Source: Chloroflexota bacterium (lineage in GTDB: Bacteria > Chloroflexota > Limnocylindria > Limnocylindrales > CSP1-4). Taken from it: a stretch of DNA of 64,000 nucleotides. Made by a program: the position numbers and the translations under genes. The DNA lies in NCBI GenBank assembly GCA_019637815.1, contig JAHBUZ010000019.1, forward strand, positions 1 to 64,000. The letters are read 5' to 3'. A model generated the notes under the pieces. It was given only the letters and a program-made list of their open reading frames with translations, made no database searches and was not told where the DNA came from. Positions 1-2,941 of the stretch are shown one piece after another. Each line of letters begins with the position of its first letter. Within the stretch, counting starts at the first letter, position 1.

Positions 1-555
1 CCGACGCTCGTCAACGTGACCACGGACAACCGCTACCTGGGCGAGGCGTCCGCGCAGGCGATCATCGACTCGGTCGAGGGGCCGGGCAAGGTGATCATGA
101 TCCACTTCGACCCGTTCGAGCCGGTCCGGCTGCGCGCCGAGGCCGCACGGGCCCTGTTCGAGACCAACGGCTGGGAGATCGTGGAGTACATCCAGGGCGA
201 CCCCGCCGATTCGACCGGCTTCGCCAAGACCAACACCCTCGATCTGCTGGTCAAGCACCCGCAGGGCCAGCTGAACGCGGTCTGGGCCGGCTGGGATGCC
301 TCCGCGCTGGGTGCCTACCAGGCGACCCAGGAGGCCGGCCGGACCGAGGTCGTGGTGACGGGTGTGGACGGCCAGGACTTCGCACGTGCCGAGGTGGCCA
401 AGGGCGGCAACTGGATCGCGACCGTGCGCCAGGACTGGCCGACCATCGGGGCGACGCTCGTGGGCATCATCGACGCGCACTTCGCGGGCATCGACCCGAC
501 GGAGCAGCTCGTGTACGTCCCGGCGGTCCTCATCACCAAGGACAACGCACAGTAG
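1..555 (+). CDS. Sugar ABC transporter substrate-binding protein, RbsB-type (5' end missing)
   Basis: This is the C-terminal part of a periplasmic-binding-protein family 4 (ribose/galactose type) receptor. The reading frame is open from base 1, so the real start and the lipoprotein or signal peptide lie outside the window. Visible family features are a helix following TTDNRYLGEASA, a strand containing VIMIHFDPFEPVRLRA, the stretch LNAVWAGWDASALGAYQA, and VVVTGVDGQDFARAEVAKGG near the hinge, all typical of the second lobe of RbsB-like receptors. The protein would bind a monosaccharide or polyol outside the membrane and hand it to an ABC permease. The next genes, a TrpA-like enzyme 53 bases downstream and an FGGY kinase, support sugar uptake followed by phosphorylation. 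The ligand cannot be told from the sequence. Confidence 0.85.
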   Translation, partial: PTLVNVTTDNRYLGEASAQAIIDSVEGPGKVIMIHFDPFEPVRLRAEAARALFETNGWEIVEYIQGDPADSTGFAKTNTLDLLVKHPQGQLNAVWAGWDASALGAYQATQEAGRTEVVVTGVDGQDFARAEVAKGGNWIATVRQDWPTIGATLVGIIDAHFAGIDPTEQLVYVPAVLITKDNAQ

Positions 556-608: not shown

Positions 609-1451
609 TTGGCGGCCCGGTTCCGGCCGGGCCGACCTGCCGTCATCTGCTACGTCCCCCTGGGTGACCCGATCGCCCGGGGGGATGGTGCGTCCGGGAC
701 GGTGTCCACCGAGGCCGCCACCTACGCGCTGCTCGACGTCTACGCCGACGCCGGCGTCGACATCCTCGAGGTGGGCATCCCCACCAGGGACCCGTGGCTC
801 GACGGCGCCGAGGTCCGCGAGAGCATGGCGCGAGCGCTCGACGCGGGCTGGGATGCGTTCGCCAGTGCCCGGGTGCTCGGCGCGTGGCGTGACGAGCGCG
901 TTGGACGTGGCGCATCGGTCCCGGCGATCCTCTGGTTCAGCTACCCCGACCTGCCGCTCGACGCGCTCCGCGATGGTGCCGCGGCCGGCGCCGTGGACGC
1001 GCTGCTGATGCTGGCGGAGCATCGGCATGCCGTGGGTGCGGCACTCCCCGGGGAGCTGGCGCGGCTCGGCGTGGCGCGCTGTGCGTTCCTGCCCTGGGAC
1101 CCCGAGCCGAGCGACCTCGCTGCCGCAGCCGATGCGACGGGCTACGTCATGGTCCAGGCACGCCCCGGCGTCACGGGCGCGGACGGACCTGCCGCGGATC
1201 CCACGCCGCTCGTCCGGATGGCCCGAGCGGCTGCCCCCAGCCAGCCCGTCGTGACGGGCTTCGGCATCAGTGGGCCGGACGACGTGCGACGCATCCTCGC
1301 GAGTGGTATCGACGGTGTCATCAGCGGGAGCGCCTGCGTGCGGGCGCTGCGACTCGAAGGGATCGATGGGCTTCGGGCGCACCTCGGGAGCCTGGTCGAG
1401 GCGGCACATCGGTCGGCGCGGGTCGGCGCCACCCAACACGGCGCAGCATGA
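609..1451 (+). CDS. Tryptophan synthase alpha-chain-like TIM-barrel lyase, possible sugar-phosphate aldolase
   Basis: The 280-residue product has the TrpA fold. LEVGIPTRDPWLDG (residues 53-66) matches the TrpA active-site stretch and keeps both catalytic acids, Glu54 and Asp65. Later come the loop QARPGVTGA and the phosphate-binding GFGIS and SGSACV segments. TrpA cleaves indole-glycerol phosphate to indole and glyceraldehyde 3-phosphate. No trpB or other trp gene is present here. The gene sits between a sugar-binding protein and a sugar kinase, and its stop overlaps the kinase start (ATGA). I therefore infer a retro-aldol enzyme for a phosphorylated sugar rather than tryptophan synthesis. 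The start is uncertain: TTG at 609 is the best fit to the family N-terminus and no clear ATG or GTG lies upstream in frame. Confidence 0.75.
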   Translation: MAARFRPGRPAVICYVPLGDPIARGDGASGTVSTEAATYALLDVYADAGVDILEVGIPTRDPWLDGAEVRESMARALDAGWDAFASARVLGAWRDERVGRGASVPAILWFSYPDLPLDALRDGAAAGAVDALLMLAEHRHAVGAALPGELARLGVARCAFLPWDPEPSDLAAAADATGYVMVQARPGVTGADGPAADPTPLVRMARAAAPSQPVVTGFGISGPDDVRRILASGIDGVISGSACVRALRLEGIDGLRAHLGSLVEAAHRSARVGATQHGAA

Positions 1452-2941
1452 CCACCCGGCGTCCGGCTGCCCTCGGGGTCGATGTCGGCAGCACCTCGGT
1501 CAAGGCCGGTCTTGTCTGGCTCGACGACGAGGGCGGCGTCGAGGTCGTCGGTCGGCCGTACCCGACCCATCGTCCACGACCCGGCTGGGCGGAGCAGGAC
1601 CCGGCCGACTGGGTCGATGGCCTGGCGTGGTGCTGGACGGAGCTCGTGCACCGGGTCGGTCCGGTCGAACTTCGATCGGTCGGCGTGTGCTCCCAGGTGA
1701 ACACGCATGTGCTCACCGATCGAGCGCTGCGGCCACTGACCCCGGCCATCACGTGGCAGGACCTGCGGTGTGCGACGGAGGCCGCCGAGCTCGACGCCAT
1801 CGCCGATGCCCGACGCACCGAGCTGTGGGGCGGCCCGTTCACCATCGATGCGTCGTTCTCGCTGTCACGCGCGCTGTGGGTGGCGCGCCACGATCCGGAC
1901 GCCTTCGCGGCGGCGCGCTGGATCATGTCGCCGCGTGACTTCGTGGTCGCGGCGCTCACCGGGGACGTGGTCACGGACACCATGAGCCCCATCGGCGTGG
2001 TGGGGCCCGATGGCGACTACCTCCGCGGCGTCATCGACCTCGTGCCCGATGCGGCGCGTCTGCTGCCGCCGGTGCGACCCTTCGATGCGCTGGCGGGTGT
2101 GACCCGGGCCGGCGTGGCGGGACTGCCGGAAGGGGTCCCCGTCGCGGTCGGCTCGATGGACGCGTTCGGCAACGTGTACGGCTCGGGGCTCGTGGCGCCG
2201 GGTCGCGCCATGGAGGTCGCGGGGACGTCGGAGATCCTGGCGGTCGCCTCGGACCGCACCGTGCCGACCCCCGGGGTCATCTCGTTCGCACCCGTCGGCG
2301 GGCTGCACATCCATGCGGGACCCACCCAGGCCGGTGGCGATTCGCTCGCCTGGGCGGGCCGCGTGCTGGGTCTGGCACCTGGGGCGGTGATCGACCTGGC
2401 AGCCGAGGCGCTCCGCGACCCGCAGCCCATCGTGTTCCTGCCGTATCTCGCGGGCGAGCGCGCGCCGCTCTGGGACCCGGACGCGCGCGGCACGTTCCTG
2501 GGCATCACCACGTCCACCGAGTCACGGCACCTGGCGCTCGCGGTGCTGGAGGGCGTGGCGTTCTCCGCACGGCACCTCCTCGGCGAGTGTGAGCGAGCGG
2601 CCGGCGTGCCGGTCAATGACCTGCGGCTGTCCGGTGGCGGCGCGCGCAGCGAGGTATGGAATCGGATCAAGGCGTCCGTGCATGGGCGGCCCCTGTCCGT
2701 GCTCGCGACCCCGGACTCGGCGATGCTCGGTGCCGCGATCATGGGCCTCGTGGCGGCCGGACTGGAGCCTGATCTCACGGTCGCCGCCGAGCGCCACGCG
2801 CGGGTCATGGAGGTGGTCGAGCCCGATGTGGCGGCCCGTGCGCGGTTGGACGACCTGTACGGCGTCTATCGGGAAGCCTACGGAGCGCTGCGGCCGCTGT
2901 TCACACGGCTGGCTCGCGGATCGGTCATCTGCGTCGGGTGA
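1448..2941 (+). CDS. FGGY-family carbohydrate kinase (xylulokinase-like)
   Basis: The 497-residue product is a full-length FGGY sugar kinase, which uses ATP to phosphorylate a ketose or polyol in the cytoplasm. The N-terminal phosphate-1 loop reads LGVDVGSTSVKAGLVW and is followed by PRPGWAEQDPADW, the xylulokinase-type substrate loop. The C-terminal ATPase half carries SGGGARSEVWNRIKA and TPDSAMLGAAIMG, the usual adenosine and phosphate-2 motifs. The ATG overlaps the stop of the TrpA-like gene by 4 bases, so the two are probably translationally coupled. The pair suggests kinase plus aldolase steps on an imported sugar. Xylulose is only the closest family guess; the real substrate is unknown. 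Confidence 0.87.
   Translation: MTTRRPAALGVDVGSTSVKAGLVWLDDEGGVEVVGRPYPTHRPRPGWAEQDPADWVDGLAWCWTELVHRVGPVELRSVGVCSQVNTHVLTDRALRPLTPAITWQDLRCATEAAELDAIADARRTELWGGPFTIDASFSLSRALWVARHDPDAFAAARWIMSPRDFVVAALTGDVVTDTMSPIGVVGPDGDYLRGVIDLVPDAARLLPPVRPFDALAGVTRAGVAGLPEGVPVAVGSMDAFGNVYGSGLVAPGRAMEVAGTSEILAVASDRTVPTPGVISFAPVGGLHIHAGPTQAGGDSLAWAGRVLGLAPGAVIDLAAEALRDPQPIVFLPYLAGERAPLWDPDARGTFLGITTSTESRHLALAVLEGVAFSARHLLGECERAAGVPVNDLRLSGGGARSEVWNRIKASVHGRPLSVLATPDSAMLGAAIMGLVAAGLEPDLTVAAERHARVMEVVEPDVAARARLDDLYGVYREAYGALRPLFTRLARGSVICVG

Follow-up and report, generated by a model that had tools for sequence, protein, structure and literature searches.

A divergent TrpA-like protein encoded with an FGGY sugar kinase and a CUT2-type importer in Chloroflexota, a candidate sugar-phosphate lyase

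TrpA, which forms the alpha subunit of tryptophan synthase, is a textbook enzyme. To our knowledge, its described relatives all act on indole-3-glycerol phosphate, and in TrpA itself it is the indole that serves as electron sink. The plant enzyme BX1 is a lyase that works without a beta subunit. In the E. coli D-allose operon, where a phosphate-binding barrel enzyme is encoded beside a sugar importer, that enzyme is AlsE, an epimerase of a barrel family other than the one considered here. Our literature search over open-licence PMC papers returned no report of a TrpA-fold enzyme in sugar catabolism. Passages of one account of TrpA (PMC11574760) describe Glu49 as both proton donor and proton acceptor and have Asp60 acting on indole N1, and part of another (PMC7008512) counts Tyr175 among the active-site residues. 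As for the kinases discussed below, sections of PMC3245297 describe five specificity positions in FGGY kinases.

The window analysed here is a stretch of 64,000 nucleotides from a Chloroflexota genome (G000; 4.07 Mb in 61 contigs, with an estimated completeness of 87%), and its start is the edge of contig C11 (G000:C11:1). Positions 1..555 of the plus strand encode the C-terminal part of a periplasmic, CUT2-type (ribose/allose-like) sugar-binding protein that is cut by the contig edge (Peripla_BP_4, 67.9 bits). It is followed on the same strand by a gene with a TTG start at 609..1451, encoding a 280-aa protein with a Pfam Trp_syntA match, hereafter TAL (TrpA-like protein), and by an FGGY carbohydrate kinase gene with an ATG start at 1448..2941, encoding 497 aa with the Pfam domains FGGY_N and FGGY_C. 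The TAL stop and the kinase start share four bases (ATGA), which bears out an earlier note on this DNA that had described a TrpA-like frame coupled to an FGGY kinase. The sugar-uptake setting proposed there stands as well, with the binding protein upstream of TAL and the kinase downstream, an order that recurs in two more genomes. The claim that no trp gene lies at the locus holds for trpA, trpB and trpC, the three genes taken in by our search: the canonical copies are all on contig C8 and none is in the window. There, trpA (C8:39294-40001; 240.9 bits) adjoins trpB, and trpC (C8:36346-37092) lies just upstream of this pair. A trpB query found no match in the window or at any of the three TAL loci. 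The other two TAL genomes likewise carry canonical trpC and trpB-trpA elsewhere, and the retention of these genes in all three argues that TAL is not the tryptophan enzyme.

The two further TAL are encoded at G001:C34 (locus L042; 52-54% identical to the window TAL) and G020:C342 (locus L043; 46-47%). Against a profile built from the three rows, the TAL scored 443-501 bits and the next best match among 177 genomes of the class, many of them incomplete, 97 bits; the nine further matches of this search all scored as true TrpA with the TrpA profile. A search of 400 genomes of the phylum at E 1e-22, with six candidates scored per genome, returned only G000 and G001. The TAL set thus comprises three sequences only, all from one bacterial family. 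Neighbourhoods of relatives, which the earlier note had put forward as a check, revealed the order binding protein-TAL-FGGY in all three genomes: L043 reads ABC ATPase, permease, binding protein, TAL, FGGY kinase and GntR/UTRA regulator, and L042 reads ATPase end, permease, binding protein, TAL and FGGY kinase. The four-base overlap of TAL and kinase is found in two of the three loci. Compared between loci, the permeases are 77-79% identical, the binding proteins 69-78%, the kinases 61-68% and the TAL 46-52%, so that TAL, having the lowest value, is the fastest-changing member of the operon. A kinase profile applied at E 1e-90 found an orthologue in the same three TAL genomes and in no other of the 177, and the additional FGGY kinases of each of the three reached at most 272 bits, as against 890-907 for the operon kinases. 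Since the three genomes are related and the genes linked, this co-occurrence supports a common pathway, not three independent events.

Several other matches were set aside. A search of genome contigs with TAL yielded four loci (L038-L041), of which L038 was taken to be the same contig as G001:C34, and the remaining three score as true TrpA, two of them within visible trp clusters. A tblastn search of plasmids with TAL gave 23 records, with best E-values of 3e-9 to 8e-4, mostly annotated as trpA. As a separate observation, two plasmids carry an orphan trpA with no annotated trpB beside it, L076:8875-9672 (Paracoccus aminovorans) and L078:5923-6768 (Streptomyces), which are candidate stand-alone indole-glycerol-phosphate lyases.

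With 81.9 bits (E 4.6e-23) against a gathering score of 27 for Pfam Trp_syntA (PF00290), TAL is, as judged from sequence, related to TrpA far beyond chance. Against the NCBIfam trpA equivalog model (TIGR00262) it reached 86.3 bits, below the cut-off of 102.35, and its E-value was the best of the three TAL; all ten comparison TrpA scored 193-375 bits. We built a tree of 49 rows, three TAL and 46 TrpA/IGL, the latter including maize BX1 and the orphan plasmid TrpA. In this unrooted tree, which has no outgroup and in which the program flagged several long branches, the TAL formed their own group on a branch of length 6.18 with support of 100/100, a clear split. The counter-case named by the earlier note, a protein grouping inside true TrpA in a genome with no other trpA, therefore fails on both halves: TAL form a separate, fully supported group in the unrooted tree, and a canonical trpA sits next to trpB at G000:C8. 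An AlphaFold2 model of TAL (20 sequences) had a mean pLDDT of 90.5 and a pTM of 0.91, and its nearest structures were BX1 (1tjr; Z 30.4, rmsd 2.1, 246 aligned) and then TrpA chains, although the likeness in fold stems in part from the input alignment, which held 17 TrpA rows besides TAL.

We compared the active sites of the three TAL and the 46 TrpA/IGL rows in a joint alignment, and made a second alignment against a profile built without TAL. Both catalytic acids recognised in the earlier note are in place: Glu54 (codon 768..770, plus strand) and Asp65 (codon 801..803, plus strand) align with E. coli TrpA Glu49 and Asp60 in both alignments, and the equivalents of these residues occur in 3/3 TAL and 46/46 TrpA/IGL. 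The phosphate-binding segments that it had also reported are there too, with equivalents of TrpA Thr183, Gly184, Gly213 and Ser235 kept in all three TAL, the first two within the loop Gly187-Val188-Thr189-Gly190 (codons 1167..1178, plus strand). The codons for Met181-Val182-Gln183 (1149..1157, plus strand) replace Tyr175-x-Val/Leu177 of TrpA: Tyr175 is Tyr in 46/46 TrpA/IGL and Met in 3/3 TAL, and position 177 is Val or Leu in 45/46 and Gln in 3/3 TAL. Other TrpA positions diverge among the TAL themselves, namely position 54 (Tyr/Phe in 45/46; Thr, Asp and Thr in TAL), Ser55 (45/46; Arg, Pro and Arg), Ala59 (44/46; Leu, Met and Leu), Asn104 (43/46; Asp, Arg and Gly) and Asp130 (46/46; Ala, Asp and Asp), and the beta-subunit contact positions of TrpA are replaced. 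The acid-base pair and the phosphate grip have thus been retained, whereas the indole side of the pocket has been rebuilt and looks more polar. Sequence comparison of the three TAL found no invariant Lys, which argues against Schiff-base (class I) aldolase chemistry, and no invariant His, which argues against class II chemistry at His-metal sites, though not at purely carboxylate ones.

The importer genes are of CUT2 type (RbsB/AlsB-fold binding protein, ABC ATPase and permease), whole in L043 and present in part in L042, and the window binding protein shares 78% identity with its full-length counterpart in L042 and 73% with that in L043. In G000, the matching ATPase and permease genes are found on a different contig, at C18:51951-54570, and are followed by convergent genes, so that the importer is split in this genome. 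These convergent genes (L093:10578-12547, on C18) encode an aldo/keto reductase and an Amidohydro_2 protein, and may hint at a nearby sugar oxidation route. Structural matches of the binding protein were generic ribose/allose/glucose-type proteins. Among the RbsB ligand positions Phe15/Phe16, Asp89, Arg90, Arg141, Asn190, Asp215 and Gln235, the two full-length operon binding proteins keep Asp89, Arg141, Asp215 and Gln235 and do not keep Phe15/Phe16, Arg90 and Asn190, and so they point to no particular sugar. Neither has the aromatic clamp found in RbsB and AlsB. In structural alignment the binding protein is 29% identical to 4wt7, an allitol-binding protein of Agrobacterium vitis; an A. vitis binding protein with allitol is described in PMC10318746.

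XylB is the best family model for the window kinase, yet the score of 252.6 bits falls below the cut-off of 380.25 (TIGR01312). Placed via the residues of GlpK from E. coli, the five specificity positions are V-N-S-D-I/V in the operon kinases and M-H-G-D-V in E. coli XylB, the Met-His pair of XylB being replaced by Val-Asn. The letters of E. coli GlpK, AraB, RhaB and LsrK differ from those of the operon kinases as well, and no kinase among these E. coli proteins matched them. In Rhizobium, a kinase with 41% identity has the letters V-N-S-D-V; the importer next to it is also related (37-41% identical), and there is no TAL nearby. Its cassette (L047:558-9461, Rhizobium sp. BG6; the same in L046, R. 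grahamii) has an amidohydrolase and a gamma-glutamyltranspeptidase-like gene beyond a GntR-like gene. Related kinases from a different family of Chloroflexota, with 41-43% identity, have no importer beside them and carry different specificity letters. Another kinase-plus-barrel pair is seen on a Thermus thermophilus plasmid (L048:6195-8467), where a BtpA/SgcQ barrel gene is immediately followed by the gene of an FGGY kinase that shares 36% identity with the one in the window.

Collectively, a role of TAL outside tryptophan synthesis is well supported. The earlier note had suggested a new sugar-phosphate aldolase role for this fold; the new role is well backed by genome context, tree and pocket changes, and the aldolase function is plausible. 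We tentatively favour, at somewhat less than even confidence, a neofunctionalised TrpA paralogue in a sugar-type catabolic operon that would cleave the kinase product by TrpA-type acid-base chemistry and release glyceraldehyde 3-phosphate. In view of the retained and changed residues, import, phosphorylation and cleavage is the simplest reading. The CUT2 ABC importer would take up a polyhydroxylated compound, the FGGY kinase would phosphorylate its terminal hydroxyl, and TAL would hold the R-CH(OH)-CH(OH)-CH2-OPO3 end in the glyceraldehyde-3-phosphate site that it has kept, breaking the bond to R through push-pull acid-base catalysis of the TrpA type. Glu54 would act as base on the hydroxyl and as acid on the leaving carbon, and Asp65 would be the acid at the electron-sink side of R, yielding D-glyceraldehyde 3-phosphate and a small R-H. 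Were R a dihydroxyacetone unit, the substrate would be a ketohexose 6-phosphate, and the products dihydroxyacetone and glyceraldehyde 3-phosphate. We infer three points here, namely action of TAL on the kinase product, lyase activity and the nature of R. We consider doubtful the most specific version, in which TAL would be the first enzyme with the TrpA fold to serve in sugar catabolism. It would then be an aldolase without metal or lysine that uses a Glu/Asp pair alone to split a ketohexose 6-phosphate made by the kinase, or a deoxy analogue of it, giving a three-carbon ketone and D-glyceraldehyde 3-phosphate, the TrpA reaction with an enediol in place of the indole.

Several points count against the favoured model. 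Ketose-phosphate cleavage with neither Schiff base nor metal has no obvious enolate stabiliser, and a carboxyl group would have to fill this part by itself. A dihydroxyacetone product would call for a dihydroxyacetone kinase (Dak1), which was found in one of the three TAL genomes (the two without it being an estimated 87% and 75% complete). Lastly, the Rhizobium kinase has the same specificity letters and a related importer but no TAL nearby. This cassette, with no adjacent lyase gene, would also fit a sugar-phosphate isomerase or epimerase, through which the kinase product would enter central metabolism without C-C cleavage, as with AlsE in the E. coli D-allose operon. We regard this alternative as possible, though rather unlikely. 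Known systems, such as the D-allose importer with alsE next to it, get by with an importer, a kinase and a single phosphate-binding barrel as a complete route, and in a genome of the same bacterial family (G002) one region, L082:4003-8345, holds genes for a TIM-like isomerase and a DeoC/LacD-type aldolase. In that region, possibly a sugar operon, a kinase-like sequence apparently lies between these two genes. TAL, however, has the carboxylate pair and the glyceraldehyde-3-phosphate site of a lyase, and neither Lys nor His, on which triosephosphate isomerase and ribulose-phosphate epimerase rely, is invariant across the three TAL.

In another alternative, R would be aromatic, and TAL would be a lyase acting on an aryl- or heteroaryl-glycerol phosphate that arises by import and phosphorylation by the kinase, be it from a pterin, an arylglycerol of lignin type or an analogue of indole-glycerol. 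We judge this improbable, even though it demands the least change in mechanism, with chemistry very near that of TrpA and the aromatic R as electron sink, and agrees with a binding protein lacking the aromatic clamp of RbsB/AlsB and their Asn190. The loss of Tyr175 and the Gln at 177 make the aglycone side look more polar, and CUT2 importers mostly carry monosaccharides. In Nitratireductor plasmids (L072:3964-13013, sp. OM-1; L075 and L069, N. rhodophyticola), trpB-trpA has as neighbours the gene of an AraC regulator, a LysE-type gene and a cassette of FGGY-CUT2-GntR make-up; on one such plasmid the pair lies about 1.4 kb from the cassette with the AraC gene between. We count this arrangement as weak support for an indole-glycerol substrate, because its TrpA is canonical and its kinase shares no more than 28-32% identity with those of the operon; the neighbourhood may be coincidence. 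It is highly improbable that TAL is catalytically dead and senses or binds a phosphorylated intermediate: it does diverge faster than its operon partners, but its catalytic acids and phosphate residues are invariant, and L043 already has a GntR/UTRA regulator. Least probable of all is that TAL is simply TrpA, or a lyase of BX1/IGL type that cleaves indole-3-glycerol phosphate on its own, placed in a sugar operon by chance; this would account for the fold, the best structural match (BX1, Z 30.4) and both catalytic acids, but not the tree position outside TrpA and BX1, the score below the equivalog cut-off, the Met at Tyr175 (kept in BX1 and 46/46) or the link to kinase and importer in three genomes; identity as ordinary trpA was itself rejected on account of the separate canonical trpA, the tree position, the sub-cut-off score and the lack of trpB at the TAL loci.

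Linkage of a conserved, trp-independent group to a sugar kinase would mean that carbon catabolism has recruited the TrpA fold, and TAL would be a natural example of TrpA retro-aldol chemistry retargeted. Annotation calls for caution, since TAL-type genes may be called trpA.

Compared with TrpA (TIGR00262, PF00290), TAL has the same fold, Glu/Asp catalytic pair and glyceraldehyde-3-phosphate phosphate loops, but differs in its sub-cut-off score, Met for Tyr175, Gln at 177, replacements at positions 55, 59 and 104, lack of a nearby trpB and separate grouping. Plant BX1 (indole-3-glycerol-phosphate lyase), the best structural match, is, as TAL appears to be, a stand-alone TrpA paralogue working in another pathway, yet unlike TAL it keeps Tyr175 and falls with TrpA in the tree, and its setting is plant defence rather than sugar uptake. 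The E. coli D-allose operon (alsB, alsA, alsC, alsE) shares with the TAL operon a CUT2 importer and a phosphate-binding barrel enzyme, which in E. coli handles the phosphorylated sugar, whereas the window kinase is of FGGY type and the binding-protein residues differ. Finally, the window kinase resembles XylB and other FGGY kinases in having both FGGY domains, with XylB as its best model, and departs from them in score and specificity letters.
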